Source: an uncultured Prevotellaceae bacterium
GTDB taxonomy: Bacteria > Bacteroidota > Bacteroidia > Bacteroidales > Bacteroidaceae
Length of the DNA stretch: 45,132 bases
Reading direction: 5' to 3'
NCBI GenBank assembly: GCA_900320565.1
Contig: ONSR01000019.1
Coordinates: 1-45,132, forward strand
The notes below the pieces were generated by a model. That model saw only the letters and a list, made by a program, of their open reading frames with translations. It was not told the DNA's origin and did no database searches. The position numbers were made by a program, and so were the translations under genes. Positions 6,842 to 34,099 of the stretch are shown piece after piece; position 1 is the stretch's first letter, and each line of letters begins with the position of its first letter.

Positions 6842-7333
6842 ATGCTTGACTTTGCAGCGATAGACTTTGAGACGGCGAATAGCGAGCGCAGCTCGGTGTG
6901 TTCTGTGGGTGTTGTCGTTGTGCGGGGTGGGGAGATTGTGGATTCGTTCTACTCGCTCATCCAGCCTGAGCCGAACTATTATAACTACTGGTGCCAGCGC
7001 GTGCATGGGCTGGGACACAGGGATACGGACGACGCGCCGTTGTTTCCTGAGGTGTGGGCTCAGGTGGAGCCTCTGATTGAGGGTCTGCCGCTGGTGGCTC
7101 ACAACAGTCGTTTCGACGAGGGTTGCCTCAAGGCGGTGTTCCGCATCTATCAGATGGACTATCCCGACTACGAGTTCTTCGACACGCTTTGTGCTTCGCG
7201 CAGGCTGTTCCGTTCTTTGCCGAACCATCAACTGCAGACGGTGGCCGAGGCTTGCGGCTTCTGCATGGAGAACCACCATCACGCGCTTGCCGATGCCGAG
7301 GCTTGTGCCAGGATTGCGATGGAGATACTGTGA
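6842..7333 (+). CDS. DEDDh 3'-5' exonuclease (DnaQ-like)
   Basis: A 163-aa stand-alone exonuclease of the DnaQ/RNase T superfamily. Motif Exo I is IDFET with D8 and E10; Exo II is AHNSRFDEG with D92; Exo III is HHALADA with H146 and D151. All four acidic metal ligands and the general-base histidine are therefore present. Such proteins remove 3' nucleotides from DNA or RNA; small stand-alone versions in Bacteroidetes are usually labelled '3'-5' exonuclease' and may act as proofreading or repair factors. No helicase or polymerase domain is fused. The gene has its own -7 box and is followed by a separate promoter for the next gene, so it is probably monocistronic. Confidence 0.92.
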   Translation: MLDFAAIDFETANSERSSVCSVGVVVVRGGEIVDSFYSLIQPEPNYYNYWCQRVHGLGHRDTDDAPLFPEVWAQVEPLIEGLPLVAHNSRFDEGCLKAVFRIYQMDYPDYEFFDTLCASRRLFRSLPNHQLQTVAEACGFCMENHHHALADAEACARIAMEIL

Positions 7334-7381
7334 GTTTTTGCTCAAATTATGGCGAGGAGTGAAGAAATTCCTCTAAATCTT

Positions 7382-7412
7382 TTTGCACTTCTCTTTTTTT
7401 TCCGTAATTTTG
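7382..7412 (+). promoter_or_regulatory. Promoter of the DUF4332 gene
   Basis: TTTG (7382-7385), a 19-nt spacer and TAATTTTG (7405-7412) match the Bacteroidetes primary sigma consensus. The leader to the start codon is about 40 nt. Confidence 0.75.
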
Positions 7413-7457
7413 TTGTCGTGAAAAGCTATTTATTAACCACCTAAACATTTAATTATT

Positions 7458-7865
7458 ATGACTTACAAGATTATCGACATCGAGGGTATTGGCAAGGCTT
7501 ATGCTCCGAAGCTCACCAAGGCAGGTATTGTTACTGTTGCTGCTTTGTTGAAGAAGTGTGCTACTCCCAAGGGCCGTGCTGCACTGGCAGAGGCTACGGG
7601 CATCAGCGAGAAGCTCATCCTGACGTGGACAAACCATGCCGACCTGTTCCGCGTGAAGGGTGTTGGCCCTCAGTTTGCTGAGCTGCTCGAGGCTGCTGGC
7701 GTCGATACGGTGAAGGAGTTCCGCCATCGTGTGCCAGAGAACCTGATGAAGAAGATGCAGGAGACGAATGCTGCGAAGAAGCTCGTCCGCCGTGTTCCTT
7801 CCGTGAAGCAGGTCGAGAAGATGATTGCCGAGGCAAAGGAACTGAAGCCCGTGGTGAAGTATTGA
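7458..7865 (+). CDS. DUF4332 helix-hairpin-helix protein
   Basis: A 135-aa protein of the DUF4332 type. It carries two helix-hairpin-helix-like blocks: IEGIGKAYAPKLTKAGIVTVAALLKKC near the N-terminus and VKGVGPQFAELLEAAGVDTVKEFRHR at about 63-90. The GIG and GVG turns are the hairpins that contact DNA backbone in this fold. Function of the family is not established; DNA binding or a structural role is the reasonable inference. Charged C-terminus (KLVRRVPSVKQVEKMIAEAKELKPVVKY). It has its own consensus promoter and a strong terminator, so it is a single-gene unit. High content of frequently used codons (aag, gct, ctg) hints at good expression. Confidence 0.85.
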   Translation: MTYKIIDIEGIGKAYAPKLTKAGIVTVAALLKKCATPKGRAALAEATGISEKLILTWTNHADLFRVKGVGPQFAELLEAAGVDTVKEFRHRVPENLMKKMQETNAAKKLVRRVPSVKQVEKMIAEAKELKPVVKY

Positions 7866-7889
7866 TTTGCTATCCCTTGAAACGAAATT

Positions 7890-7926
7890 GAGGGCATGTC
7901 AAAATAAACAGACATGCCCTCTTTTA
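7890..7926 (+). terminator. Rho-independent terminator of the DUF4332 gene
   Basis: An 11-bp perfect stem, GAGGGCATGTC (7890-7900) with GACATGCCCTC (7911-7921), loop AAAATAAACA, is followed directly by TTTTAT. It is 24 nt after the stop codon. Confidence 0.9.
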
Positions 7927-7954
7927 TGTTTTAACCACTAACTGCACTAATTAT

Positions 7955-8029
7955 CTTTAACCGTTAACCTTTTTCCGCGCATAAAAAGCGCGCCTTTGTG
8001 CTAAAGCATCAAAGAACCATTAACCGTTA
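7955..8029 (-). repeat. Two-hairpin stop-adjacent element, copy A
   Basis: First of three copies (others at 9119 and 16841). In plus-strand order it contains TTAACCGTTAA, hairpin 1 (CGCGC, ATAAAAA loop, GCGCG; 7976-7992), hairpin 2 (CTTTG-TGC, TAAA loop, GCA-T-CAAAG; 7994-8014) and a final TTAACCGTTA touching the stop codon of the minus-strand gene. Hairpin 2 differs from the other copies at three base pairs, each on both sides of the stem. It has no T-run on either strand like a classical terminator, but its position suggests a 3'-UTR role. Confidence 0.8.
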
Positions 8030-8836
8030 TTACTTGATGTCTTTGAATTCGCTGGTAGTGAGGGCAGTCATCCGCATCGTTTCCTTGTCTATCTTGATGT
8101 AGCCGTCGTCCATCGGGCTGTCGAAGCCGAGGCTCTGCTTCGTTCTTTCACTGATGGGGATGTACCAGAAGAGGTCTGTCTCTCGTGCCACAGTGTACTT
8201 CTCCAGGTTGCTGTCGCCGGAGACGTTGATGTATTTCACGTTCTCGTCGAGCGGCGAGCTTGATGAGACGCGGAAGTGGCACGGCTCGCCTTTTGCCAGG
8301 GGAAGCACCGTCTCCTGCTTCGGCAGGATGAACCACACCAGCCCTCGGTCCATGTCCGTGATGAGCATCTCCTTCTCGGAGTTGTTCCTCACGATGAGGT
8401 CCACCATCAGTGTCTTCATCTCCTCAGCCTGAGCGTAGGCATCGGCAGACATCGCTTCGAGTTCTCTTTCCATGTCTCTTCCCTCCACGTAGCCGGCGAT
8501 GTAGCCCGCTCCTCTGTTGCCTCTGAACATCTGAACCTCGGAGAACGTGGTGCCGCCGGCAGACAGGGCAGACGCTACCGACAGCCAGCCGGCGGTGCGC
8601 TTAGCCTGCTTGATGGCTTTGATGAGTTCGGGCGACACGACTTGTTGCGTCACGAAGCACGACACGAGGTTGTCCTTCGAGTCCATCTGCAGCATTTGCC
8701 GATGGTTCGTGAGCGAGTCCATCTGCCCATTCTCGATGAAGATGATGCGGTTCAGGTACGTTGGGATGTACGTAGTCTTGGCTTGCGATGCCAGTGCCAG
8801 CAGGGCAACAATAGCAGCGGAACAGAGTCTTTTCAT
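8030..8836 (-). CDS. Secreted protein of unknown function
   Basis: A 268-aa protein with a signal peptide (MKRLCSAAIVALLALASQA, cut before KTTY), so it is exported. The middle has a small hydrophobic Ala/Gly stretch (WLSVASALSAGG...GAGYIAGYVEG, about residues 84-117), which may be membrane-associated, and a Glu/Met-rich helix. The second half (MLITDMDRGLVWFILPKQETVLPLAKGEPCHFRVSS) looks like beta-sandwich text. I do not recognise the family. Upstream (8837-8900) there is no clear promoter box. The gene's stop codon touches hairpin element copy A, and a 22-nt-period array lies about 110 nt upstream of its start. No cysteine directly after the hydrophobic stretch indicates a lipoprotein. Confidence 0.75.
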   Translation of the reverse strand: MKRLCSAAIVALLALASQAKTTYIPTYLNRIIFIENGQMDSLTNHRQMLQMDSKDNLVSCFVTQQVVSPELIKAIKQAKRTAGWLSVASALSAGGTTFSEVQMFRGNRGAGYIAGYVEGRDMERELEAMSADAYAQAEEMKTLMVDLIVRNNSEKEMLITDMDRGLVWFILPKQETVLPLAKGEPCHFRVSSSSPLDENVKYINVSGDSNLEKYTVARETDLFWYIPISERTKQSLGFDSPMDDGYIKIDKETMRMTALTTSEFKDIK

Positions 8837-8944
8837 AATTCAGGCAGTTTATCGGCTGCGAAGTTACGACTAAAAGTAGAAAAAGCCAAACAAAAACCAG
8901 ACTTTTTCCTTTACTTACATTTCAGTCACTTACGAATCTCTAAA

Positions 8945-9077
8945 AAATCCTGCAGTGGATTTGATGAAATCCTCACGTCGATTTAAGGGACGTGTCCCTA
9001 TCGCCATAGGGACGCGTCCTTCCCCTCATAGGGACGTGTCCCTCTCCTCATAGGGACGCGTCCTTTTCCGAACACGG
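8945..9077. repeat. 22-nt-period palindromic array 1 (six units)
   Basis: Six consecutive units start at 8945, 8967, 8989, 9011, 9033 and 9055; the last is 23 nt. The first two are of type AAATCC-n6-GGATTT, the other four of type GACGYGTCC..CATAGG. Each unit carries a short palindrome (AAATCC/GGATTT or AGGGAC/GTCCCT), so the arms change together between unit types while the spacing stays 22 nt. It ends with GAACACGG-ATTT. It occupies most of the 363-nt space between two minus-strand genes. Same design at 16724 and 21651. Confidence 0.85.
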
Positions 9078-9118
9078 ATTTGTCTTTAACCTTTTTCCGT
9101 TATTCAAACACTAATTAT

Positions 9119-9197
9119 CTTTAACCGTTAACCGTTTTCCGCGCATAAAAAGCGCGCCTTGCCGCTAAAGCGTGCAAGAACCTTTAACCGTTATTAA
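9119..9197 (-). repeat. Two-hairpin stop-adjacent element, copy B
   Basis: Same layout as copy A: CGCGC/GCGCG hairpin with ATAAAAA loop, then hairpin 2 as CTTGC-CGC, TAAA loop, GCG-T-GCAAG (9158-9178). Loop and bulged T are unchanged relative to copy A while three stem pairs are swapped. It lies just 3' of the stop codon of the giant repeat protein fragment. A partial duplicate (CTTTAACCTTTTTCCG) precedes it at 9083. Confidence 0.8.
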
Positions 9198-9199
9198 AG

Positions 9200-9940
9200 C
9201 TACTTCTTCAGCAGTTTTCTGCCGCCCTGGATGACGATGCCCTTGTAGTCCTTGCCTACCTTCTGGCCAGCCAGATTATAGGTAGAGTCGTTAAGGTCCT
9301 TAAGGTTCTTAGAGTCCTTGAGGTCATTGATGCCCGTGATATAGTCCTCGCTGGCGATGATGATCCACTCGTCTGTGATGTTGTTGTCGTTGGCATCCAG
9401 GATGTAGCCATACGGTATCCACATGTCTTCTTCTTCTTCTACCAAGACATCCACGATGCCGCAGTGTGCGCCTTCGGGCAGACCAAGCACCAGTCCGTCG
9501 CTGAGCGAGAGAACGGCTTCCTCGCTGTCTGCTCCGTAGATTTCTACGGCTCCCATTGCGCCCTTGAGCATGACGACGGTCTCTGAGCCGCTGACAGCAA
9601 GGGGATAGAAGCTCCAAAGAGCACTTCTCGTTTGGCTGTCGGCAGTCACCTTGGCACCTCCTTCGATGACAAATGATCCATTGAGAGCCTCGAATTTTGA
9701 TGTCACGCTGAGTGAGCCAGGACCTGTTATCGTAAATGATGCGTCGCTATAGATGCCAAAGCCTTCGGGGACTTCTATGCTGTTCTCGCCTTCGAGCTTG
9801 ATGATAACCTCGTCAATCTGTGTCGAGAGTCCCTCGCCCTCTGCCTCGATGTCGGCGCCGTTGAGCGTCAGCGTGTTCGTCTCTGCATCGTAACTAACCG
9901 TGCCGTCGCCAAGGACGTCCGCCTGATTGAGGCTCGTCAC
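9200..9940 (-). pseudogene. 3' fragment of giant repeat protein 1 (frameshifted)
   Basis: This 246-codon frame continues the giant protein encoded at 9937-13749 after a frameshift. It begins inside a repeat module: reading back past the assigned GTG gives FIAGTQ-VTSLNQADVLGDG, the usual module start, in this frame, while the upstream frame runs into a stop at 9937-9939. The apparent GTG start and the 4-nt overlap are therefore most likely artefacts of an indel. It holds the last module (TLTLNGADIEAEGEGL, then VIIKLEGENSI, ITGPGSLSV, VIEGGAKVTADS) and the C-terminal tail STYNLAGQKVG..YKGIVIQGGRKLLKK that the paralogue also has. Without it the giant protein lacks its presumed sorting or anchoring tail. 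Translational coupling from the GTG is possible but less likely. Confidence 0.75.
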
Positions 9941-12900
9941 TTGTGTGCCTGCGATGAAGACTCGGCATTGACGATGTTGCCCGTATCTTCGTTGTAGTAT
10001 GCGCCGACTGGCTGCGTAAGCTCCAGTCCGTCTTCGAGCTCGGGAGCAAAGCCGCTATAGGTTCCTTCCTCGCCCTTCATGCCCAGCACGGTCTCTGCGC
10101 CGCTAACCGTCAGGAATTGTGTGAGGATGGCACAGGAGCCTGTACTTTCTGCCGTTACATGTGCGCCGCCGCAGACGTTCAGACTGCTTGTGGCACGAAT
10201 CCCGGTGTATGATGCTATGATGTCGAGCGTGCCGGGACCGTAGCTGTCGTCGGTCGTTGCTTCGATGTTTAGAGTTTGCCCCATGATGCCGGAGCCTTCG
10301 CTCGTAATCTTGTTCTCGCCTTCGAGCTTGATGATAACCTCGTCAATCTGTGTCGAGAGTCCCTCGCCCTCTGTCTCGATGTTGGCATTGTTGAGTGTCA
10401 AGGTGTTTGTCTCTGCATCGTAACTTACCGTGCCGTCGCCAAGGACGTCCGCCTGATTGAGGCTCGTCACTTGTGTGCCTGCCACATAGATGTTGTACTT
10501 GTTGACCTTCTGGATTGTTACCCAAGATGTTACGATGTCGTTGCGGCGGCCTGCACAGATGGCGAGTTTGCTCAGATTGAACGAAGCGCCTGCAGGCTGA
10601 GTTATCTCGAGCTGGTCGTTCAGGTTAAGAGCTGTGCATCCGAACGAACCATCGCCGCCCTTGGCCTTCACGACAGTCTCTTCGCCGCTGATGGTTGTGA
10701 TGCCTGCCATGATGCCCCTCAAGTCTCCCTCAGCCGATACCTGTGCGCCATCAAGAATCTGCAGCGGTTTGGGCTGATTGTTTCCTATAGCATAGATGCC
10801 GTACATGGCAGTGATGGAGAGCGAGCCAGGGCCTTCGATGAAGCCTTTGCCCTTGAACCAGATGCCTTTGCTTGTGCCGTTCAGCGATCTTGTGCAAGTG
10901 ATGGTGTTGCTGCCCTCGAGCTTGATGTGGAGTTCCTGCTCAGCCTCGATGCCACTGCCGTCACCGCCGTCGATGTTGGCATCGGTGAGTGTCAGGGTCA
11001 GTGTCTCGGGGTTGTAGCTTACGGTGCCGTCGCCCAGCACGTCGGTCATGTTGCGGTTCGTAACCTTTATGCCTGCAACAGTAATGCCATAGTCCTCGGT
11101 GTACTGAATCGTTACCCATTCGTCCTTGATGACGTTGCCGTCGGCATCCTTTATCTCGCCATCGACATACTGTGCGCCTGCGGGTGTTTCAATTCTAAGG
11201 CCATCGTTGAGGGTGAGGCTGGTCGATGCTTTGAAGGTGCCGCGGGCGTCAGGGCCGCACTTCATCCTTACGACAGTATTCTCGCCGCTGATGGTTGTCT
11301 CCTGTCCATTGATGGCATATTGCGTCGAACCCTCAGCCGTCACCTGAGCTCCGTCGCTGATGAAGAGTTTCGACAGATGAGCATCGATGCCGTATTTTCC
11401 GTTGACATAGAGCGAACCGGGGCCTTGGATGTAGCAATATTTGGAGGCAATGCCGTATGTCGTGCTGTTGATAGTGTTTTCGCCTTCGAGCTTGATATAG
11501 AGGGTCTTGCCTGCATTGATGCCTGCTTCAGAGCCAGCCTCGATGTTGGCATTCGTGAGGACGAGTGTGCCAGGGCCTGAATCATAAGCAGGTTCTTGGA
11601 AGACAATGGTCCCGTCGCCCAGCACATCATGCTGGTTGGCATTCGTGATTTGCGTGCCAGCCACGTAATAGTTGTAGTTCCTCAGCTTGCCGATGACGAT
11701 TTCTGCACCCTTAATGATGATGCCTGTGTCTGTCTTGAAGCAATGCATGTTGTTGCTGAATATTATGCCTTTGGGAGCCACGATGATATTGTCGTCTTCC
11801 AGGACGAGGGCTTCTGCATACAGCGGCTTGCCGGCATGCTTCCCAATGCGAAGCTCAGCTTCTCCCTTCACATAGAGATTACCACTCACGTAAGCGCAAT
11901 ACGCTTCCGAATAGGTTGTCGATTTAGCTTCCACGCGGGCAGCGCCATTCAGCACGAGGTCGCCGCCAAGGAGTGCAATGGGATTTTTGTTGGCACTGAC
12001 ATTGAGTTTCTGTTTGTACCATTCTGCTTCGGCAGTCGTGATGGTGAGGGACTTTACGGTATTGCTGTCGGTAGCTATGCCGTCTTCTGCGCCAATGATG
12101 TTGACGAGGTCTTCGCCGAGTTCGATAATGGGATTGGAATCCTTTATCCTGAAGTCGATGGCATTGCCTGTTTCGCTGACGATGTCCACGCCGCTGAGGC
12201 AGAGGGTCTGCTTCGAGATGTCGTAGCGGGCATAGCCCCAATCGGTGTTCTTCGTCACTCCAGGCAGGACGGTCAGGTCGTTGGCATTGGCAGAGGTGAT
12301 GTGCTTTCCGGCTATCTGTATGTTATAGACCACATTGCCTTCATCGTCTATGTTGCCCAGAATGACGTTCCACCCTTTGTCCTTTGCTATTTGAGCCTGT
12401 GCAAGGGTGCAGACATTGTCGGTAGTCAGGTCTTGTCCCATGACGGTGATTTGCGCATTCTTGTATGGTGAAACCTCGTGCAGACTCTCAAGCGTCTCGG
12501 TCATCCAAGCGTCGATGATGTTTCCGCTGATGTCTGCATTAATGAGGCTCTGGCAATCGGTGAAGTCAATGAAAGGAATTCTGTTGCCCGAGCAATACAA
12601 TGAGATGAGGTGCTGGCAATTCGTGAGCTTCAGGTACGTTATCTGATTCATGCGGCAATCTAACTGTAACAGGTGCTCCATGCTGCTTACATCTAGATAT
12701 GTCAACTTGTTATTTCTGCAATAAACCTTCTTCAAGTACTGCAGCTGGTTTATGCCCTGTAGCGAAGAGATGCCCATGTTGTCCGCATAGAGATTCTCAG
12801 CGTTTAACACTTCTTCGAAGTCAAGTTCGCTGTCGCTGTTCTTGTCGAACGATGAGGTGACGAGACCCCGGAATGCTTCGTCGGGGAAGGTTTCCTCGTT

Positions 12901-13749
12901 GATGGGCGTATAGGTGAGGATGGACATATCTGTGACCGCCGAACCCGCTGCCCTCAGGAGGAATGTCCCGTCGGTCTGGCTGAAATAGACCTCCTGGTCA
13001 TTCGCGTCCTTCATCTTCTCTGTGCCGAGGATGCGTACATCCTTCAGTCCCGTGGCAACAGACTGGGCGAAAGTTCTGGTGGAGAGCTTGACGCCGCTGT
13101 TCTGCACAACAAACAGGCTGAGGTCGCTCAGTGCCTTTTTGCCCTCTATATCCACATAGGCATCGGTGATGACGACTTCTTCCCTGCCCGACTTGCTCAC
13201 GATAGCGGTGGAAGCATCGTAGGGGGTAACGAATGCGCTAATTTTCATTTGGATGTCGGAGATGACAAGCCTTGCACCATTGAAGATGGTGATGGCATCC
13301 TTTTCATCACCTTTGATTTCGGTATACAACTTAGAGCCGCCAATAATGCCAGAGGCGGACTTGATTGTAGTGTTGGCATTCAGCCGAAGGGCAGAAGCAT
13401 AATCGGACCGTATCTTATTATAATCTTCGAAGACAATCGTCAAGCCATCGCAGCTCTCGTTGTAGATGGCATACTCATTGTTCTTGCAATCAATTTTGAT
13501 GTTTCTCAAAGTGAGCGTCTTGGTGCTGGGGTCGTAGCTTATCTTCGAGTAATAGGAATCGAATGTGAAATAATTGTTGTCGAAGATGTAATTTTCATGG
13601 GTGAAGATTCTGCTGCCAGTGATGTTGTTGCAGTTGTCGGAGGTGACGCTTACGCCTGCAACCTTGATGCCGTAGTATTCGGCACGCGCTGCCTGAGGCA
13701 CGAAGCATGCCAGCATCAACAAGAGAGAAAAGAGTTGAAGTTTTTTCAT
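9937..13749 (-). CDS. Giant secreted LRR/beta-repeat surface protein 1 (C-terminally truncated by frameshift)
   Basis: A 1270-aa protein with a signal peptide (residues 1-23, ending QAARA). Order: N-terminal beta-rich region ~25-280; a degenerate EF-hand-like stretch FDKNSDSELDFEE ~301-313; leucine-rich repeats ~320-420 (LDVSSMEHLLQLDCRMNQITY and similar); one 'A-type' repeat ~475-690 (HITSANANDLTVLP, CLSGVDI); then 'B-type' modules of ~195 aa at ~693, 889 and 1087. Each B module reads YxIxVAGxxVTxxN, DVLGDGTVS, TLTLxxANI, IKLEGxNxI, GPGSLxV and WVTIQ, which suggests a right-handed beta-solenoid similar to carbohydrate-binding Cthe_2159-like domains (inference). It is probably cell-surface and may bind glycans or host/plant material. 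The last residues (NAESSSQAHK) are out of frame with the module; the rest of the gene is at 9200-9940. Close paralogue at 16915-21147. Confidence 0.8.
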   Translation of the reverse strand: MKKLQLFSLLLMLACFVPQAARAEYYGIKVAGVSVTSDNCNNITGSRIFTHENYIFDNNYFTFDSYYSKISYDPSTKTLTLRNIKIDCKNNEYAIYNESCDGLTIVFEDYNKIRSDYASALRLNANTTIKSASGIIGGSKLYTEIKGDEKDAITIFNGARLVISDIQMKISAFVTPYDASTAIVSKSGREEVVITDAYVDIEGKKALSDLSLFVVQNSGVKLSTRTFAQSVATGLKDVRILGTEKMKDANDQEVYFSQTDGTFLLRAAGSAVTDMSILTYTPINEETFPDEAFRGLVTSSFDKNSDSELDFEEVLNAENLYADNMGISSLQGINQLQYLKKVYCRNNKLTYLDVSSMEHLLQLDCRMNQITYLKLTNCQHLISLYCSGNRIPFIDFTDCQSLINADISGNIIDAWMTETLESLHEVSPYKNAQITVMGQDLTTDNVCTLAQAQIAKDKGWNVILGNIDDEGNVVYNIQIAGKHITSANANDLTVLPGVTKNTDWGYARYDISKQTLCLSGVDIVSETGNAIDFRIKDSNPIIELGEDLVNIIGAEDGIATDSNTVKSLTITTAEAEWYKQKLNVSANKNPIALLGGDLVLNGAARVEAKSTTYSEAYCAYVSGNLYVKGEAELRIGKHAGKPLYAEALVLEDDNIIVAPKGIIFSNNMHCFKTDTGIIIKGAEIVIGKLRNYNYYVAGTQITNANQHDVLGDGTIVFQEPAYDSGPGTLVLTNANIEAGSEAGINAGKTLYIKLEGENTINSTTYGIASKYCYIQGPGSLYVNGKYGIDAHLSKLFISDGAQVTAEGSTQYAINGQETTISGENTVVRMKCGPDARGTFKASTSLTLNDGLRIETPAGAQYVDGEIKDADGNVIKDEWVTIQYTEDYGITVAGIKVTNRNMTDVLGDGTVSYNPETLTLTLTDANIDGGDGSGIEAEQELHIKLEGSNTITCTRSLNGTSKGIWFKGKGFIEGPGSLSITAMYGIYAIGNNQPKPLQILDGAQVSAEGDLRGIMAGITTISGEETVVKAKGGDGSFGCTALNLNDQLEITQPAGASFNLSKLAICAGRRNDIVTSWVTIQKVNKYNIYVAGTQVTSLNQADVLGDGTVSYDAETNTLTLNNANIETEGEGLSTQIDEVIIKLEGENKITSEGSGIMGQTLNIEATTDDSYGPGTLDIIASYTGIRATSSLNVCGGAHVTAESTGSCAILTQFLTVSGAETVLGMKGEEGTYSGFAPELEDGLELTQPVGAYYNEDTGNIVNAESSSQAHK

Positions 13750-13781
13750 AATGGTAGTATTTAAAGTTAATAATGTTAATG

Positions 13782-13789
13782 CAAAGATA
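13782..13789 (-). promoter_or_regulatory. -7 box before giant repeat gene 1
   Basis: On the minus strand this reads TATCTTTG, matching TAnnTTTG, 32 nt before the start codon of giant gene 1. The same box with the same spacing occurs before the paralogue (21180-21187). No good TTTG -33 box is visible. Confidence 0.55.
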
Positions 13790-13800
13790 TGTTTTTTTGC

Positions 13801-13974
13801 TTAAGACGCCAAATGTTCTGTAATCTTTTTGTCTATCATCTGCTCCAGCCTGGGCTCTATCTCCTTCCACTTGCGGTCGAGCATTCTGTCCATCACGGCT
13901 TCCTGCTGCGACAGGAAACTCATATAGTCTGCCGCAAGCTCGTGGGCTGCTTTTTGCTTTTCTGTGGAGGACAT
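13801..13974 (-). CDS. Small 57-aa charged helical protein
   Basis: A short gene on the minus strand, start ATG at 13974-13972 and stop TAA at 13803-13801. The product begins MSSTEKQKAAHELAADYMSF and ends KKITEHLAS. It is rich in Glu, Lys, Gln and Met with a heptad-like pattern (LAADYMSFL, VMDRMLDRKW, IEPRLEQMIDKKI), so a single helix or coiled coil is expected. No signal peptide or cysteines. A TACTTTTG -7 box lies 30 nt upstream. It sits 51 nt before giant repeat gene 1 on the same strand. The paralogous locus retains only its last ~8 codons (KIAEHLAS) after a deletion, which supports the reading frame: one substitution and no shift. Family unknown; a regulatory or structural role is open. 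The opposite-strand frame over the same DNA is Cys- and Leu-rich and unconvincing. Confidence 0.7.
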   Translation of the reverse strand: MSSTEKQKAAHELAADYMSFLSQQEAVMDRMLDRKWKEIEPRLEQMIDKKITEHLAS

Positions 13975-14003
13975 AATGTGTGGCTTTGTGTTGTTTTCTG
14001 CTG

Positions 14004-14011
14004 CAAAAGTA
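14004..14011 (-). promoter_or_regulatory. -7 box of the 57-aa gene
   Basis: Minus strand TACTTTTG fits TAnnTTTG. It is conserved at 21234-21241 in the paralogous upstream region. A -33 box is not evident, consistent with activator dependence and the direct repeats just upstream. Confidence 0.5.
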
Positions 14012-14043
14012 GGACTATTTTCCGGAAAGCCAGTTGTTAAAAT

Positions 14044-14075
14044 CTTCCAAAATATTTGTTATTTTCTTCCAAAAT
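14044..14075 (-). promoter_or_regulatory. Direct repeats ATTTTGGAAG with 22-nt period (putative activator site)
   Basis: On the minus strand ATTTTGGAAG occurs twice, its plus-strand complements at 14044-14053 and 14066-14075, with a 12-nt spacer. The pair lies about 33-64 nt upstream of the -7 box and is conserved at identical spacing at 21274-21305. Two ~10-nt direct repeats at a 22-nt period match the architecture of LytTR-type response-regulator sites. The regulator is not known. Confidence 0.5.
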
Positions 14076-14285
14076 GCAGTTTCTTTCGATGAAATGGGGA
14101 ATTTTGAAAGATTGAAAATTGAAAATTGAAGATTGAAAAGAGGGGATTTTGAACATTGAACATTGAACATTGAGACGTTGGTTCATTGATAATTGATAAT
14201 TGAAAACTCCTTCACTCCTTAGACAAAGAATATCCCTGTTGGGGCGTTTCCTCCTGACTGCAAAGTGAAGAAAATATACAAAATG

Positions 14286-14317
14286 TTTGGTAGCATCACA
14301 CAAATGTACTATCTTTG
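14286..14317 (+). promoter_or_regulatory. Promoter of the phosphoethanolamine-transferase-like gene
   Basis: TTTG (14286-14289), a 20-nt spacer and TATCTTTG (14310-14317) match the consensus. The expected transcription start (about 14322) lies downstream of the in-frame ATGs at 14265-14305, so translation must begin at the ATG at 14343. Confidence 0.8.
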
Positions 14318-14342
14318 CACGGGAGAAGTACATAACTGCCAC

Positions 14343-15860
14343 ATGCTCTGCTTCCTCTCGCTGTTCCTGATGTTCTGTGCAGCAGCCATCTACCGTGCCT
14401 TGCTGTATGGGAATGAGCCTTATGCCAATCTGCTGCTCGTAGCATTGTCCAGCGCCGTGCTGTCGTTCTTCCTGACAGCGATGCGTCCCTATTGGCTCTT
14501 CGTCCTGCTGAGCATTCCCCTGATGTGGCTCTCCGGCAACGAGACTTTCGTGGTTGTGGTGTACCGTCACTACATGAAGGCGATGAATGTCGTCTCGATG
14601 TTCATCACGAATACGACGGAAAGTGGCAGCTTCATCTCCAATAACCTCTTGGCTATCCTGTGCGACGTGCCCATCGTCGTCCTGTGGCTCGTCGCCTTGT
14701 GGGCAAAGCGCACGAGTCGTCCGCTTGGCTACAAGACGTTTGCCGCCTCGGGCGCATTGCTGGTGCTGTTCCTGGCCTTTACGTGGGAGACAAAGCTGAT
14801 GGACCTGCCGCCCTTCAACCTGCCGCTGCAATACTACCGAGGCTATGCCATAAACCAGAAGATAGCTCAGGCGGCTTCCGGTCCCCACATCACGCCCGAC
14901 TGCCAGCAGCTCAATCCCGGGGAGCGCGAGGCGTACGTCCTGTTCATAGGTGAAAGCGTCGTCTATGACCACCTGTCGCTTGCCGGTTACAACCGTCCCA
15001 CCACTCCGCTCATGGATGGTCGCGACAACCTCACCCTCTTCACCGACTACATGACCAATGCCACCTTGACATTGCTGGCAGCACCAATGCTGATGACCGA
15101 CGCCACGACCGACGACTTCTTCCGGAGCTATTCCGGCGTCAATAGCCTGCAAGTCTTTGGGGCATGCGGCTTCAAGACCTTTGTTCTGGTCTGCACCAAC
15201 CACCTGGAATACGACACCTACCTCACCACGTCGGCCGACGAGGTGATAAGCGTGGGCAAGGATATAGACATCCCCGCCAAGGTGGACTCCCTGACAAACA
15301 TCTATCCCAAGACCTTCTTCATCGTGCAGGGACTGGGCAACCATTGTTACTTCTATAACTTCGAAGAGCAGGACAACCTCTTCACGCCCAACCCTTATTA
15401 CGGGCCAAGCGCACAGTCCGACAGCCTCTACTACAACGCCTACGACTGCACCCTCCGCTATACGGATCGCGTCGTGGACGGCGTCATCAATGCCATCGAC
15501 AAGGAAGGCATGACCTCCCTGATGCTCTTCGCCTCCGACCACGGAGAGAATGTGAACCCAGGCGACGAACGGCGCTCCGTCTCCATGAACCCGATGCGGA
15601 GCGAATATCATGTGCCCCTCATCATCTGGAGGAGCCAAACGTGGATAGAGCAGAACCCCGAAAAGGAACAATGCATACTCGCCGCCAAAGACCGCCCAAC
15701 GAACACCGACAACGTCTTCTATACCCTGTGCGACGCAGCATCAATCCTCCTTCCCGACTCCCTCTCCAAACCCGAATGGGCCATCACCTCCCCGACATTC
15801 ACCCAGCACAAGCGCACACTCCTCACCCCCGATGGCAAGACCATCCTCGAGCTTGACTGA
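14343..15860 (+). CDS. Phosphoethanolamine transferase-like membrane sulfatase-fold enzyme
   Basis: A 505-aa inner-membrane protein with about five hydrophobic segments in the first ~150 residues and a periplasmic catalytic domain. Motifs correspond to the EptA/CptA family: FIGESVVYDHLSLAGYNRPTTP with metal ligand E204, catalytic Thr in NATLTLLAAP (T241), the QGLGNHCYFYNF block near residue 328, and ASDHGEN with D399 and H400. The family moves phosphoethanolamine from phosphatidylethanolamine to lipid A or other surface glycans. The usual GTxTA at the nucleophile is ATLTL here, so the protein is a divergent member. The ATG at 14343 was chosen because the promoter lies over the longer upstream extension. 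A bidirectional terminator separates it from the convergent PAP2 phosphatase gene, another lipid/phosphate-acting enzyme. Confidence 0.82.
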   Translation: MLCFLSLFLMFCAAAIYRALLYGNEPYANLLLVALSSAVLSFFLTAMRPYWLFVLLSIPLMWLSGNETFVVVVYRHYMKAMNVVSMFITNTTESGSFISNNLLAILCDVPIVVLWLVALWAKRTSRPLGYKTFAASGALLVLFLAFTWETKLMDLPPFNLPLQYYRGYAINQKIAQAASGPHITPDCQQLNPGEREAYVLFIGESVVYDHLSLAGYNRPTTPLMDGRDNLTLFTDYMTNATLTLLAAPMLMTDATTDDFFRSYSGVNSLQVFGACGFKTFVLVCTNHLEYDTYLTTSADEVISVGKDIDIPAKVDSLTNIYPKTFFIVQGLGNHCYFYNFEEQDNLFTPNPYYGPSAQSDSLYYNAYDCTLRYTDRVVDGVINAIDKEGMTSLMLFASDHGENVNPGDERRSVSMNPMRSEYHVPLIIWRSQTWIEQNPEKEQCILAAKDRPTNTDNVFYTLCDAASILLPDSLSKPEWAITSPTFTQHKRTLLTPDGKTILELD

Positions 15861-15908
15861 GTGCCCATAAAGGCTGACGGCATTACCGTCTATGAGTTAT
15901 GAAAAAGA

Positions 15909-15935
15909 TTAGGGGAGCTGATGTGGCTCCCCTAA
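15909..15935. terminator. Bidirectional terminator between convergent genes
   Basis: A 10-bp perfect stem, TTAGGGGAGC (15909-15918) with GCTCCCCTAA (15926-15935), loop TGATGTG. TTATTT follows on the plus side and AATCTTTTTC on the minus side, so it can serve the transferase gene and the phosphatase gene. Confidence 0.88.
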
Positions 15936-15959
15936 TTATTTCTGTCTGGCAGGCTGGAT

Positions 15960-16676
15960 TTACTTTCCCTTCTTCAGCTTCTCGAACTCTTTCTTTGCTT
16001 TGGCAAGTTGGTCCATGAAGTCTTTGTTGTTCATTAGGGCGGGCAGGACGAGTGCACCTACCATTTGGCCGGCCTTGACGTCGCTGTAGTGGTGGAAGCC
16101 TACTATCCAGCGGCTTTCGCCAAAGTCGAGGCCACGCTTGTAGAGTTGGTTCTGACGTTCGGGATTGATGCAGGCCAGCACCATCGAGACGGCGACGCCT
16201 GTTGCGCTGTGACCTGATACGTAGCTGCCGTTGTGGCGCAGGTGCTCCTCTGCTTCGGGCACGGGTGTGGGCTCGTTGTAGAGAGCATAGGGACGGGTGC
16301 GCTTGTAGAGGTTCTTCGTGCAGCGTGTGGCATAGCTGCCTGCATCTTCCTTCATGCGGTTGATGAGGTTATAGATTTCCGGCGTGTCTTCCTTCGAGAG
16401 CTTCATGCCGAAGGCTTCGGAGAAGACGTCCAGGATGTTGTCGGTCGAGGTGTTGGCGTCCTTGACGGCTTGCTTGCCGCGCGGTGTGTCGCGGAGCGTC
16501 TTGCCGTATTGATACATGTGGAAGTCCTGTTCGAAGAGCAGCGAGCCGAATGCTGGTGGGGGACCGATGAAGGTAGTGTCCAGGGGAGCTTCCTCCTTGG
16601 TCAAGTAGTGGTTCGACTGTCCGTAGATGGTGATTACGGTGAACAAAAACGCGATGATGCTGATACTTCTTTTCAT
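15960..16676 (-). CDS. Secreted PAP2-family (class A) acid phosphatase
   Basis: A 238-aa protein with an N-terminal signal peptide (residues 1-19, ending IYGQ). The three-part PAP2/haloperoxidase signature is complete: K121-x6-R128-P129 in KNLYKRTRPY, GSYVSGHS at 150-157 (the usual PSGH has Val for Pro), and SR-x5-H-x3-D with R189, H195 and D199 in SRWIVGFHHYSD. H195 is the expected nucleophile and H156 the acid/base. Size and the periplasmic location fit class A non-specific acid phosphatases (PhoN-like) rather than polytopic lipid phosphatases. It removes phosphate from a broad range of esters in the periplasm. The C-terminus is Lys-rich and helical. It is convergent with the phosphoethanolamine-transferase-like gene. 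Confidence 0.92.
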   Translation of the reverse strand: MKRSISIIAFLFTVITIYGQSNHYLTKEEAPLDTTFIGPPPAFGSLLFEQDFHMYQYGKTLRDTPRGKQAVKDANTSTDNILDVFSEAFGMKLSKEDTPEIYNLINRMKEDAGSYATRCTKNLYKRTRPYALYNEPTPVPEAEEHLRHNGSYVSGHSATGVAVSMVLACINPERQNQLYKRGLDFGESRWIVGFHHYSDVKAGQMVGALVLPALMNNKDFMDQLAKAKKEFEKLKKGK

Positions 16677-16723
16677 TGTTTTTAGTTGTTAGATGTGTTT
16701 TAGTGCTTGCAAAGGATTTGCCC

Positions 16724-16834
16724 AAATCCTGCAGTGGATTTGATGAAATCCTCACGTCGATTTTGCCAAATCCTCACGTCGATTTAAGGGACGTGTCCCT
16801 CTCCTCATAGGGACGCGTCCTTATCCGAACACGG
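16724..16834. repeat. 22-nt-period palindromic array 2 (five units)
   Basis: Units start at 16724, 16746, 16768, 16790 and 16812 (last 23 nt). Three AAATCC-type units are followed by two GACGYGTCC-type units, ending with GAACACGG-ATTT as in array 1. The number of each unit type differs from array 1 (three plus two here, two plus four there), the behaviour of a variable-number tandem repeat. It lies between the phosphatase gene and giant repeat gene 2. Confidence 0.85.
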
Positions 16835-16840
16835 ATTTGT

Positions 16841-16914
16841 CTTTAACCTTTTTCCGCGCATAAAAAGCGCGCCTTGCCGCTAAAGCGTGCAAGAACCGTT
16901 AACCGTTATTAAAG
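16841..16914 (-). repeat. Two-hairpin stop-adjacent element, copy C
   Basis: Nearly identical to copy B (same hairpin 2 with CTTGC-CGC, TAAA, GCG-T-GCAAG at 16873-16893) but with the first TTAACCGTTAA shortened. It directly adjoins the stop codon of giant repeat gene 2, and array 2 directly adjoins its other side. Confidence 0.8.
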
Positions 16915-19900
16915 CTACTTCTTCAGCAGCTTCTTGCCGCCCTGGATGACGATGCCCTTGTAGCCGCTGCCTACCTTCTGGCCAGCCAGATTATAGGTAG
17001 AGTCGTTAAGGTTCTTAGAGTCCTTGAGGTCCTTAATGCCATCGATGTAGTCCTGGCTGCAGATGACAACCCACTGGTCGGTGATGGCCTCGCCGTCGGC
17101 TTTTACGATGTGCTTAGTCCTGTTGTCGAAGTAAGCGCCTGCGGGAACACCGATGATGAGGTCGTCCTCCAGTGTGAGCGACGGGAAGTTGTAGGGCGCC
17201 TCTGCACCCTTCATGTTCACGACGGTCTCTGCTCCACGGATGGTGATGCCGCCTGCCGAAGCGTTCTTCTTGCCCATGCCGAAGCCTATGGTGCCTTCTG
17301 CTATGACATTGACGCCGCCGTCGATGGTGATGCCGGGAGCTGAGGAGTAGATGCCTGTCTCGCCTTGGCAACGGAGCGAGCCTGTGAGGATGCTCGAGAT
17401 GGTGGTCTGCTCAGTGATGTAGAGGCCGTAGATGCCCTTCAACTCGTTTTGCCCTTCAACCTTCAATGTAAATGGTGTATAGGCAAAGATGCCATAGTTG
17501 TCAGTGCCGCCATCGATGTTGGCATTGTTGAGGGTGAGCGTTTTTGTTTCAGGGTCGTAGCTTACGGTACCTTCGTCACCAAGAACGTCGGACAGGTTTG
17601 TGTCGTTCACCTCTGTGCCGGCGATGTAGATGCCGTAGCCCATGCTCTTGCCGATGATGACGGTGGTATTGCTCAGTCGCTGTTCTTCTGCATCCACTAA
17701 GGAACGCTTTTCCTCGCTATAGGTTGCGCCGACGGGCTTAATGATGCCGATGCCGTCTTCCATGATGAGTTTGCAGTTGTAGTCCATCCACAAGGCTTCC
17801 TGCTTAGCGGTGAGTGTCAGCCTGGCATCTTCCTTCAGCGTCAGGGCGGAACCTATTGCTTCAGTGAGGGAGAAGGCAGACTTGCGTGTGCTCTCTATGT
17901 TCACCTTGGCTCTGCCTGCTATCGTAACGCCGCATTGGGCCAAGAGGCTGTAACCTTGGGTAGAGATGGTGAGACTTCCATCCGCGTCTGCCCATTTCTC
18001 TGTGGTGATGGTGAGGTGCGACTGGACATTGCCGCTGCGATGGATGCCTTGCGTGCCAAAAGTCAGGTCGTAGCTGTCGAAGTAGTTATTGTAGATGCAT
18101 ACGGGGTCGTTGCCGAGCACGATGGTTGCGTCGCGGAAGGTAGAGATGTCGAGTGCATGAGCCTTCGTTTCGGCATCCACCTCGATGTCCACGCCGCTCA
18201 GGTGCAGCGAGTTGTCCGAAGCGTCGTAGCGTGCATAGCCACCTTCTGTGTTGAGCGATATGGCAGGCAGGACGGTGAGGTCGGACGCGATGGCCGACGT
18301 GATGGTGTCGCCTGCAAAAGCTATATTATATATAGTGTTGCCGTAGGCATCTGTGTTGTGGGCATCCACGAAATCCTGACCGGCTATCGTCACCCATTCA
18401 TTCTTGATGGTGGAGCCGCTGGCACGCACGATGCCGTCCCACTCGTCGCGGAAGTAAGCGCCCTTAGGTAAGGCAATCTGTAGGTCGTCCTCGAGGGTGA
18501 GTCGCTTGAAATCGACGGCTCCTCGCACGCCTTTCAGTTCGACGATAGTTTCTTCACCACGGATGACGACTTCCTCAGCGCTGCTGTATCTCTTGCCCAT
18601 ACCGTAGCGTTCGGTTCCTTCGGCCTTCACTTGTGCGCCGTCCTCGATGTAGAAGATGGGCGTGTTGGAGTAGATGCCGTACTTGCCGGTAGCGTTGAGC
18701 TTGCCAGGACCTTTGATGTGCGTCTCTTTTTCGAAGGAGATGCCGACGCTGCCATTCACGTTGTTCTCGCCATTCAGGACAATGTCGAGCGGGATAAGTG
18801 AGTTGATGCCGTACTGGCTGGTGCCGCCGTCGATGTTGGCATTTGTGAGTGTGAGCCTGTCAACGCCGTTGAAGCAGACAGAGCCTCCGTCGCCCAGTAC
18901 GTCGCTCAGGTTGCTGGTGTTCACCCTTGTGCCTGCGATGTAGAGGTCGTAGTTCTTGGGCTGACCGAAGAGGACTTCGCCTGTCACTTTGTTGCCGTCC
19001 TTGTCAACTATGAAGCCCTGCGACTTGTCGTAGTATGCTCTGACGGGCGAGACGATGCCGATGCCGTCCTCATAGATGATGTCGCCGTATATGGTGCCGT
19101 TCCCTCCCATCCATAAGGGCTCGGAATCGGTTACAAGCTGCAGCTCTGCATGTTCCTTCATGGTCAGGTTGCAGCTGGCGCATGTGAGCGGTGTACGTTT
19201 CTCTGAGGTCAGTGTCACCTTTGTATAGCCGCCTATCACAAGTGGGGAAGAAGTGTATATAGCATAGCCTCTGGTTGTGACGTTCAGCTGCGAGGTGGTA
19301 TTTCCCTCGCTTGTGATGCTAAAGGTCTTACTAGACGAATCGACGTGGATGCCCGATTCCGAGAAAATGTTGTTGACGATGTTGACAGGATTCATGCCGA
19401 GTTTGATGCTGAAGTCGCTTTTCATACCAACTTCGAGGGTATATTCATTGAGGCTGTCTGGCGCAACGATATCTACGCCGCTCAGGTGCAGCTCGTTCTT
19501 GTTGCTGTCGTAGTACGCATAGCCTGAGTCGCAGTTCTTCGTGACGTAGGGAAGCACGGTGAGGTCGTTCTTCGTGGCAGACGTGATGTACTGTCCGGCT
19601 ATCTTGATGGGGTAGTACATATTGCCGTCGTCGTCGATGTTACGGATGGTAACCTTCCATCCTTTCTGCCTTGCGATGTCGGCTTGTTCGTCAGTGCAAG
19701 TGTTGTCAATTCCTGTATCATAAACAGAAGTAATATGGATACTGCCACCCGTTGTGGTGGGTAGGCTCTCGAGTGTTTCGGTCATCCAGGTGTCGATGCG
19801 GTTGCCGCCCATCAAAATTTCCCAGAGTTCGTTGCAATGCGAGAAGTCGATGTACGTGAGAAGGTTATTCGTGCAATTTAAAGATATGAGGCTGTCGCTT

Positions 19901-21147
19901 TTCGAGAGGTCGAGGCGTGTCAGTTGGTTATAGTCGCATCTCAAGTTGCGCAGCTGCGGGCTTTTCGTCACATCGAGGGATTTCAGCGGATTGGATGTGG
20001 TAACAAGCTTCAGAAGGTACTTGAAGGGTGACACGTCGAGTTCTGTGATATTGTTCCTGGTTATATTCAGAATCTCCAGCTCTGGGAAGTACTCTATTCC
20101 TTTCAGTGAAGAGATGTCTCTGTCTGTGACGTCTATGGTGATATAGTAAGTTGACTCTTCTGTTTCAGATTTAGAATACACACCCGCTTCCTGTTGGTCG
20201 AGTCTGCCATCGGCGGGCCTGTCGTCCTTTTCTTCTTTAACGTATGCCCGGAAGTTGTCGTCGGGGAAGTGTGCCTCGTCTATGGGTACGAAAGGCACTA
20301 AATATAGACCCCCATGGATCGCCCAGTCTTCGTCTTCCCAGTATGGTCTGAACAGGAAGGTTTTCTTGTCACTGTCGAAGTGAGCAGCGTATGCTTCGCT
20401 AAGATAAAAGGTCTTTGCCATCATGTTGGAGCTAAGAAAGCAGTTCCCGACATCCTTCATTGCCAATGCGAAATCTGGATAACTGATAGTAACTTCGCTG
20501 TTCTCCACAAAGACAGAGACAAAGTTACTAATACCGGACCATTTGGTTTCTTTCCATCCCTGGCCATCTTGGTAAATATAAAGTTCCTCACTATCTGTGA
20601 TTGCAAGAGTCTCAGATCCAGTGTTGCCTATTATGCCATTCGAATGCTCTGCATAAATCCGAATCGGTGGGCAGTTCGTAAAGGTCAGCGAAGCACCGTT
20701 CCCCACGGTGATGGCATCTTCGTAATCACCTCTGATGTAGATACAGGAGTTCCAGTAGATACCTTCTTGAACTCTTTCCATCGGTATGCCCGTGATGGTG
20801 GTGTTGGCATTGAAGCGCAAGGGAGAAGCGTTCGGGGAATTCATTGCGCAGGGACTGACGAAGCGGATGGTCAATCCGTTACAACTTTCATTGAGGATTG
20901 CACGGTTGCCGCTGCCGCTCCTCTCAATTAAGATGTTGTCGAGGGTAAGCGTCTTCGTGCTGGGGTCGTAGCTGGCATGGGGCGTCCCATCGAGGAAAGC
21001 CTTGATGTTGCTGCCAGTAATGTTGTTGCAGTTGTCGGAAGTGACGCTTACGCCGCCAACCTGAATGCCGTAGTACTCGGCACGCGCTGCCTGAGGCACG
21101 AAGCATGCCAGCATCAGCAAGAGAGATAAGAGTTGAATTTTCTTCAT
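16915..21147 (-). CDS. Giant secreted LRR/beta-repeat surface protein 2 (intact)
   Basis: A 1410-aa paralogue of giant protein 1 with nearly the same signal peptide (MKKIQLLSLLLMLACFVPQA) and first ~40 residues. Order: N-terminal beta-rich region ~25-285; LRR-like block ~335-430 (LDVSPFKYLLKL, LDVTKSPQLRNL, LDLSKSDSLISL); then alternating modules: A-type ~505-740 (YITSATKNDLTVLP), B-type ~745-935 (NLSDVLGDGGS), A-type ~950-1160 (ITSAIASDLTVLP), B-type ~1165-1370 (NLSDVLGDEGTVS). The tail is STYNLAGQKVGSGYKGIVIQGGKKLLKK, a C-terminal pattern common in secreted Prevotella proteins and possibly a sorting signal (inference). Protein 1 has A-B-B-B-B order, so modules have been shuffled or amplified. 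Probably surface-exposed and possibly glycan-binding. No catalytic residues are recognised. Confidence 0.82.
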   Translation of the reverse strand: MKKIQLLSLLLMLACFVPQAARAEYYGIQVGGVSVTSDNCNNITGSNIKAFLDGTPHASYDPSTKTLTLDNILIERSGSGNRAILNESCNGLTIRFVSPCAMNSPNASPLRFNANTTITGIPMERVQEGIYWNSCIYIRGDYEDAITVGNGASLTFTNCPPIRIYAEHSNGIIGNTGSETLAITDSEELYIYQDGQGWKETKWSGISNFVSVFVENSEVTISYPDFALAMKDVGNCFLSSNMMAKTFYLSEAYAAHFDSDKKTFLFRPYWEDEDWAIHGGLYLVPFVPIDEAHFPDDNFRAYVKEEKDDRPADGRLDQQEAGVYSKSETEESTYYITIDVTDRDISSLKGIEYFPELEILNITRNNITELDVSPFKYLLKLVTTSNPLKSLDVTKSPQLRNLRCDYNQLTRLDLSKSDSLISLNCTNNLLTYIDFSHCNELWEILMGGNRIDTWMTETLESLPTTTGGSIHITSVYDTGIDNTCTDEQADIARQKGWKVTIRNIDDDGNMYYPIKIAGQYITSATKNDLTVLPYVTKNCDSGYAYYDSNKNELHLSGVDIVAPDSLNEYTLEVGMKSDFSIKLGMNPVNIVNNIFSESGIHVDSSSKTFSITSEGNTTSQLNVTTRGYAIYTSSPLVIGGYTKVTLTSEKRTPLTCASCNLTMKEHAELQLVTDSEPLWMGGNGTIYGDIIYEDGIGIVSPVRAYYDKSQGFIVDKDGNKVTGEVLFGQPKNYDLYIAGTRVNTSNLSDVLGDGGSVCFNGVDRLTLTNANIDGGTSQYGINSLIPLDIVLNGENNVNGSVGISFEKETHIKGPGKLNATGKYGIYSNTPIFYIEDGAQVKAEGTERYGMGKRYSSAEEVVIRGEETIVELKGVRGAVDFKRLTLEDDLQIALPKGAYFRDEWDGIVRASGSTIKNEWVTIAGQDFVDAHNTDAYGNTIYNIAFAGDTITSAIASDLTVLPAISLNTEGGYARYDASDNSLHLSGVDIEVDAETKAHALDISTFRDATIVLGNDPVCIYNNYFDSYDLTFGTQGIHRSGNVQSHLTITTEKWADADGSLTISTQGYSLLAQCGVTIAGRAKVNIESTRKSAFSLTEAIGSALTLKEDARLTLTAKQEALWMDYNCKLIMEDGIGIIKPVGATYSEEKRSLVDAEEQRLSNTTVIIGKSMGYGIYIAGTEVNDTNLSDVLGDEGTVSYDPETKTLTLNNANIDGGTDNYGIFAYTPFTLKVEGQNELKGIYGLYITEQTTISSILTGSLRCQGETGIYSSAPGITIDGGVNVIAEGTIGFGMGKKNASAGGITIRGAETVVNMKGAEAPYNFPSLTLEDDLIIGVPAGAYFDNRTKHIVKADGEAITDQWVVICSQDYIDGIKDLKDSKNLNDSTYNLAGQKVGSGYKGIVIQGGKKLLKK

Positions 21148-33960: not shown

Positions 33961-33961
33961 A

Positions 33962-34058: not shown

Positions 34059-34099
34059 AACTATGAACTATGGACTATGAACTATGAACTAAAAAAGAT

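Follow-up and report, generated by a model that had tools for sequence, protein, structure and literature searches.

A family of 42-nt repeats, three copies of which lie in a stretch of 45,132 nucleotides from an uncultured Prevotellaceae bacterium (contig ONSR01000019.1 of assembly GCA_900320565.1; the whole stretch analysed is referred to here as the window), very probably consists, judging from the sequences compared, of very small non-autonomous mobile elements. The initial annotation had described these copies as a stop-adjacent two-hairpin element, and that observation is real and well supported, but it was misplaced as a 3'-end element; among the roles suggested for it, the evidence favours that of a mobile REP-like element. 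The unit comprises YTCC, hairpin 1, a C and hairpin 2 with a bulged T; it ends with AAG in most copies and is directly followed by AA.

In the window, a covariance model detects exactly the copies A, B and C at E <= 1, at the positions first noted (Table 1). Since the model was derived from 14 copies of the same genome, including copy A as well as one whose letters match those of B and C, this search is a check of number and place and not an independent proof. The stop codon of a minus-strand ORF lies 0-2 nt from each copy, as had been stated, and the distance between core and stop codon amounts to 13-19 nt in the three cases. Hairpin 1 (CGCGCATAAAAAGCGCG) has the same letters in all of them; with up to three mismatches allowed, chance would give 0.17 matches in the window, and three matches were not reached in any of 100 shuffles. 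The invariance claimed for hairpin 1 thus stands, but that claimed for the flanking TTAACCGTTAA does not, because copy C has none upstream of its core, and other copies in the genome have quite different flanks. The core letters of copy C are those of copy B, and both copies belong to one 205-nt stretch, 91% identical and including both gene ends, so that they are not independent. Consequently, the window alone offers one contrast (A versus B/C), and the remainder of the evidence comes from the wider family. This contrast consists of the three two-sided differences in hairpin 2 that had been reported, with the TAAA loop and the bulged T kept. At the locus of copy A (L009), the core stands between CCTTT and CCATT, with AA as the spacers.

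Table 1. Positions in the window of the three copies, their parts and the neighbouring genes (core, the 42-nt unit plus the following AA; E, covariance model E value)
Feature	Position	Strand	Remarks
Copy A, full extent	7955-8029		
Copy A, degenerate heptamer array on the 5' side	7955-7972	+	CCGTT-AA, CCTTT
Copy A, 42-nt unit	7973-8014	+	E 4.6e-16
Copy A, 44-nt core	7973-8016	+	
Copy A, hairpin 1	7976-7992	+	
Copy A, hairpin 2	7994-8014	+	bulged T at 8009
Copy A, heptamer array up to the stop codon	8017-8029	+	CCATT-AA-CCGTTA; stop codon 8030-8032
Gene next to copy A	8030-8836	-	268-aa ORF, no Pfam match
Copy B, full extent	9119-9197		
Copy B, heptamer array on the 5' side	9119-9136	+	by reading
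Copy B, 42-nt unit	9137-9178	+	E 1.2e-15
Copy B, core	9137-9180	+	
Copy B, hairpin 1	9140-9156	+	
Copy B, hairpin 2	9158-9178	+	bulged T at 9173
Copy B, heptamer array up to the stop codon	9181-9197	+	by reading; stop codon at 9200
ORF next to copy B	9200-9940	-	246 aa, no Pfam match, end ...KGIVIQGGRKLLKK
Copy C, full extent	16841-16914		
Copy C, short 5' flank	16841-16851	+	CTTTAACCTTT, without TTAACCGTTAA
Copy C, 42-nt unit	16852-16893	+	E 1.2e-15
Copy C, core	16852-16895	+	
Copy C, hairpin 1	16855-16871	+	
Copy C, hairpin 2	16873-16893	+	bulged T at 16888
Copy C, heptamer array up to the stop codon	16896-16914	+	CCGTT-AA-CCGTT; stop codon at 16915
Gene next to copy C	16915-21147	-	1410-aa ORF, sub-threshold leucine-rich repeat matches, end ...KGIVIQGGKKLLKK

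The window contains several other features. The minus-strand ORF next to copy B overlaps a second one (9937-13749), and the two resemble one long protein broken near its end. Tandem palindromic repeats of 22 nt, of the type AGGGACGTGTCCCTCTCCTCAT, occupy 8986-9075, 16790-16830 and 21690-21760, the first and second of these stretches lying close to copies B and C. Further 22-nt tandem arrays, at 33960-34080 and 41215-41310, consist of a 20-nt palindrome-bearing unit plus AA (CGCCCTATAGGGGAGTGAGC-AA), a punctuation that matches that of the heptamer arrays.

The two-hairpin fold of the family is maintained by compensatory changes, as is shown statistically. Compared with their own dinucleotide shuffles, the window copies reach fold z values of -2.4 to -3.1 on the mRNA strand, and 1 to 7 of 200 shuffles fold as well as the copy on either strand. 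Among 14 distinct 44-nt copies from the genome, which were aligned with no fitting to the structure, though the structure itself was derived from the copies, 98.9% of the pair cells hold standard pairs, two-sided changes affect 7 of the 13 pairs (6 of 8 in hairpin 2), and the covariation score was reached by none of 500 shuffles. The covariation holds in the wider family: in 68 distinct ungapped 44-mers (from 102 of 135 copies, namely those of 44 nt and with CCGC only), standard pairs fill 96.5% of the pair cells, as compared with a mean of 86.7% and a maximum of 88.8% in 1000 shuffles. The view that selection acts on a folded strand is thereby upheld. The bulged T is kept in 66 of these 68 copies, the other two carrying different sequence inside hairpin 2, and hairpin 1 shows a two-sided change (CGCAC...GTGCG) in three. 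On the element's own strand, which is opposite to the mRNAs of the window genes, G.T cells outnumber A.C cells by 20 to 7; as the copies are related to one another, this can do no more than hint that folding concerns this strand. The opinion that the element is not a standard terminator applies, by reading, to the two-hairpin fold, which no T-run follows; a loose scan still flags weak terminator-like sites inside the copies, at 7976-7992 (+), 9172-9155 (-) and 16887-16870 (-), among 12 sites found between 7850 and 17000 versus 8.8 expected, a number close to chance. A search of window positions 7000-17500 against Rfam 15 returned five matches, all of them far under the gathering scores.

The family is restricted to one genus among those searched. 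In the genome that contains the window, an 88-base blastn query spanning copy A returned 41 hits at E <= 10 if weak ones are counted; flank reading revealed about 44 nt common to the copies, and the covariance model recognized 31. Over the genus, at least one match was obtained in 30 of 139 genomes, with 1-49 per genome, while a family-wide search found matches in 9 of 399 genomes, all from this one of 30 genera. As the latter search scored 15 candidates per genome (15 matches in the window's own genome, compared with 31 in the genus search), carriers with weak matches in other genera may have escaped it. Within the genus, the repeat is mostly confined to one group: a one-gene tree of 30 genomes places 11 of 13 carriers together, with moderate support (85/80), and the carrier label requires three changes, versus a mean of 10 after shuffling. 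Two carriers, G037 (33 copies) and G015 (1 copy), are placed among non-carriers. All assemblies are drafts, the carrier genomes being 62-97% complete and the window's own 89%.

In the records of the hairpin 1 motif search, at least 71 of the 80 named records listed are titled Bacteroidales, Prevotellaceae or Bacteroidaceae MAGs, and many of the matches listed derive from ruminants, judged by isolate name. One true copy is located on a contig labelled Clostridiales (L130). Eight loci from unrelated taxa (L089, L094, L098, L131, L136, L148, L152 and L161) show the 20-nt hairpin 1 pattern without a profile match and were taken as chance occurrences. A search of plasmids and phages with one 44-nt query at E 0.01 gave zero matches; among viral contigs, one contains two cores (L196, IMGVR_UViG_3300028887_000746), so that phages or prophages may carry the element. 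Seven ORFs of this contig were scanned: phage anti-repressors are matched by one, and PHROG families of unknown function by two others. The same border letters recur in another short family, TTCCGCCTGCGCCTGAGC...AAGAA (L013 1314, L049, L051, L093, L157, L175, L176), and a longer form of it is situated inside hairpin 2 of a core in L176. A further module, GGCTGCRAAGCAGTCTCGACGCAGTC followed by AA, is joined to cores or arrays in L019, L031 and L041.

The position of the copies relative to genes does not correspond to that expected of a 3'-end element. After repeated contexts and hits less than 30 nt from a locus end had been dropped, 135 of 185 hits were kept; 130 were used for the study of flanks, and 97 remained after removal of similar flanks. 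Ninety of these 97 copies are intergenic and seven overlap predicted genes, some of which are doubtful; copies inside genes had been named in the initial annotation as an observation that would refute it. The ORFs were called with a home-made program that missed one in-frame case (L033) and gave at least one doubtful gene (L039, an ORF running through an array). For the 67 of the 90 intergenic copies with a called gene on each side, a 3' gene end is closest in 34 cases and a 5' gene end in 33. These copies are distributed over 46 tandem, 12 divergent and 9 convergent regions, compared with 154, 24 and 19 such regions in the same loci. Within 60 nt of stop codons the orientations are 14:14, while in tandem regions 33 copies run along the gene direction versus 13 opposite to it (p 0.005). 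The element is therefore not tied to gene ends, and the position counts, the orientation and the empty sites described below together argue that it is not a 3'-end element.

Particular gene contexts recur. In L045 and L117, the core lies at the very end of ORFs with the tails ...GRSVRAVRV or ...GRSVRPVRV; the flank of L129 and L178 resembles that of L045, perhaps reflecting a repeated gene family ending in the element. In L021 (1499-1543) and L066, from two genomes, a 15-nt direct repeat, CATCAATGAACCGCG, flanks a core that is found at a possible start codon, and the target resembles a unit-unit junction.

Relatives of the window's genome provide sites at which the element is absent. Homologues of the gene next to copy A in G058, G054 and G093 are followed by a short, hairpin-containing spacer that lacks the core. 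For copies B and C, the homologous gene ends in G091 and G016, respectively, show no core in the 190 nt behind them; orthology is likely but unproven in these two comparisons, because the genes next to B and C are themselves related. Two further copies of the genome, C39:26520 and C17:12278, both with arrays, are absent in five and three relatives, respectively, and since array and unit are missing together, array growth and insertion are inseparable there. At one of these two sites, G016 exhibits a different short heptamer-like stretch.

Two resolved empty sites are those of an alpha-L-arabinofuranosidase gene (PF22848) with two copies 87 nt apart, one in the leader and the other directly behind the apparent signal peptide. 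Both are absent in four near relatives (L238-L241), and comparison with the closest, G091 (L240), yields a net gain of 42 nt at each filled site. The coding copy adds 14 codons in frame (FRTLEVRHGAKASM), and the flank of the leader copy has two base differences from the empty site outside the unit. The empty-site comparison for in-gene copies covers this gene. In four other open-frame contexts, the copy follows an apparent signal peptide in a protein with no Pfam match (L033), separates the two domains of a response regulator with a PglZ domain (L114), lies between a tetrapyrrole methylase and a sub-threshold second methyltransferase match (L064, where a heptamer array is translated next to the core), or is read from the other strand in the N-terminal region of a pseudouridine synthase (L027). 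Another record, L169, presents a context like that of L027.

The point of entry is best defined in heptamer arrays. An array is present on at least one side in 26 of the 87 copies tested (those of the 97 whose core ends with AA), and in all 20 resolvable cases, i.e. those with one best phase and at least 6 of 7 matches, the phase is the same, between NNNNN and AA. AA forms the array spacer in 20 of 22 cases on the upstream side and in 13 of 14 on the downstream side. A 5-nt flanking repeat matching in at least four positions accompanies 29 of the 97 copies, compared with 2.7% of pairs from different copies, and a perfect one accompanies 14, compared with 0.5%. Flank agreement peaks at offset 5 and recurs at 12 and 19, which is the mark of heptamers. 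Only for the array subset can the landing rule be called firm, since 56 of the 97 copies lack both the 5-nt repeat and an array of the form tested. A 42-nt unit placed in front of AA requires no target duplication, while a 44-nt unit implies one of 5 nt; the coding empty site agrees best with the former, and a 5-nt target duplication is possible. Units may also adjoin one another, as in a direct dimer (AAG/TTCC, L128) and in L160 and L092, where just a 5-nt repeat separates two units.

The arrays themselves were considered as footprints of excised elements (a 5-nt duplication plus AA), an idea that was abandoned because the core-less genome G011 has period-7 arrays too (31 in 369 kb, versus 51 in 388 kb of the core-rich G041); the arrays thus do not require the element. 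Seven is by far the commonest tandem period in the stretches of both genomes that were counted (31 of 86 arrays in G011, 51 of 103 in G041; L197-L216 and L217-L236). An AA or TT step occurs in 81 of 82 heptamer units, with about 71 expected from shuffled units. Evidence that AA is the most conserved step is mixed, mismatches at this step versus elsewhere being 0.133 versus 0.124 in G011 and 0.076 versus 0.165 in G041. Cores of 43 nt were also noticed inside 22-nt arrays (CGAGGCACGCTCTTATTGCC-AA) in L104, L125, L159, L187 and L124, so that longer units that end in front of AA may obey the landing rule as well.

Taken as a whole, these observations are probably best explained by a small non-autonomous mobile element. 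The folded-single-strand mechanism by itself is a plausible, still tentative proposal. One strand of the element, either DNA at the replication fork or RNA, would fold into both hairpins, and this fold would be the form that is recognized and moved. An enzyme acting in trans, or the replication and repair machinery of the host, might bind it through hairpin 2 and the bulged T, after which the bound strand would be joined to the front of an AA. The many such sites that NNNNN-AA arrays provide outside coding sequence could explain why these arrays are often entered, and insertions into genes would be tolerated as long as the reading frame remains open and the added residues come to lie in a linker or behind a signal peptide.

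It is highly improbable that the copies serve as a 3'-end mRNA stabiliser, processing structure or terminator behind stop codons: the short distance from the window cores to the stops, the good folding on the mRNA strand and the weak terminator-like sites that B and C show on this strand would suit such a role, but the stabiliser suggested at first is contradicted by the even split of nearest gene ends, the balanced orientation near stops, the homologous genes of relatives without an element behind them and the copies inside genes, and the G.T excess hints, among related copies, at the strand opposite to the mRNAs. Movement of a REP-type element as folded ssDNA by a RAYT or an IS200/IS605-like Y1 transposase, the enzyme having been lost or missed in many genomes, seems quite unlikely. 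Two hairpins, a conserved bulged T, no clear duplication and an AA border resemble Y1 substrates, and Y1 matches of any strength occur in 62 of the 139 genomes of the genus; nevertheless, strong Y1 (PF01797) matches are not associated with carriage (7 of 30 carriers, 23 of 109 non-carriers, p 0.81), none was found in the window's genome (31 copies, 89% complete), and the copies read have no GTAG or CGTC tag at the foot of the hairpin. Spread through an RNA intermediate and a reverse transcriptase, as was reportedly proposed for cyanobacterial small dispersed repeats, is considered very unlikely. It would account for the compensatory pairs, the preponderance of G.T over A.C on one strand and the bias along the gene direction in tandem regions, but RVT_1 (PF00078) is likewise not associated with carriage (11 of 30 carriers, 31 of 109 non-carriers, p 0.38), and 7 of the 17 genomes with at least 13 copies lack both RVT_1 and Y1. 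The search for a mobiliser covered these two families in the 139 genomes of the genus and yielded no mobilising enzyme; given the incompleteness of the carrier genomes, single gene absences mean little, and the lack of association over all 139 weighs more.

A mechanism with no dedicated enzyme, in which hairpin-primed slippage and template switching at forks generate the arrays and copy short palindromes into them, the compensatory changes representing template-directed correction of imperfect palindromes, is unlikely, but it would fit the abundance of heptamer arrays in a core-less genome, the other palindromic modules beside or inside cores and the gain of array and core at the same sites. 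On the other hand, template correction should erase the bulged T, which nearly all distinct copies keep, and the single phase in arrays together with the net 42-nt gains at two sites indicates defined ends. A broader reading, conceivable if rather improbable, is that one process in these Bacteroidales builds AA-punctuated arrays from units of 5 nt (the heptamers), 20 nt (the 22-mers) and folded ones some tens of bases long, all joined before AA; the 42-nt element would then be the folded mobile member, moving with no transposase of its own and adding 14-residue peptides to proteins as well.

Among known systems, the nearest kind would appear to be the small dispersed repeats (SDR) of cyanobacteria, followed by REPs and the Rickettsia palindromic elements. 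SDR, described by Elhai and co-workers in 2008, are reportedly dispersed sequences of 21-27 nt with a fold common to the copies and compensatory changes, and are said to lie frequently within tandem heptamers, to nest in one another and to be confined to a coherent subgroup. By this description, the 42-nt element is similarly very small, dispersed, nested and subgroup-confined; it shares the reported association with arrays (the 26 of 87 tested copies) and shows compensatory changes in its own fold, the SDR folds being known here by description. It differs in belonging to another phylum, in its length, in its two hairpins with a bulged T and in its borders, YTCC...AAG/AA. Heptamer arrays of cyanobacteria are termed STRR, and the landing sites of the element are arrays of that general type.

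A precise insertion point, as the element also has, is reported for SDR5 in HIP1 in PMC4390886; work on cyanobacterial SDR is cited in that source and in PMC3116915 and PMC2884548. TAACTGA heptamers in some Bacteroidetes, which can be read as CTGAT-AA, are described with no evident transfer mechanism in PMC4679880; the passages compared mention no inserted element such as the arrays considered here receive, and the latter also exist without it. REPs carry a conserved GTAG or CGTC tetranucleotide at one palindrome end and have some copies inside genes (PMC3733652, in part), and REPIN hairpins undergo compensatory changes (PMC3116915, in part). The 42-nt element resembles the REPs and REPINs moved by RAYTs in being a short, mostly intergenic palindrome with many copies, compensatory changes and some copies in genes, but it has no such tag, the border being YTCC...AAG/AA in the copies listed; moreover, its presence is not associated with Y1 (RAYT) genes, it is a single asymmetric unit and it has a fixed place in heptamer arrays. 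Rickettsia palindromic elements, of about 150 bp, insert in frame into unrelated genes (PMC10969869, in part). The 42-nt element shares in-frame insertion, the empty site having been compared for one gene, but it is much shorter and mostly intergenic. BrickBuilt, a MITE of Porphyromonas gingivalis, is built of a 23-nt minisatellite with leader and tail subunits (PMC4596501); it is likewise an intergenic mobile-type repeat of Bacteroidales, and a two-hairpin unit does not figure in its abstract. MITEs of DDE transposons have terminal inverted repeats of 15-30 bp (PMC3733652, in part); the ends of the 42-nt unit have, by reading, just TTC/GAA in common, the search for a parent having covered Y1 and RVT_1. 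No account of this repeat family was found in the literature searched, most subscription journals being outside its reach. The family is new as a repeat, and its kind, very small mobile-type hairpin repeats, is already known, SDR having been compared by description.

The manner in which elements too small to encode an enzyme spread is an open question on which the 42-nt family bears, and we know of no agreed origin for bacterial heptamer arrays; the family joins these two questions. It also demonstrates 14-residue inserts in proteins and serves as a warning for annotation, as covarying hairpins next to stop codons can be mobile DNA instead of regulatory RNA. With tens of copies per genome, defined ends, empty sites, a fixed entry point and carriers beside non-carriers, the genus offers a natural experiment for finding the mobiliser.
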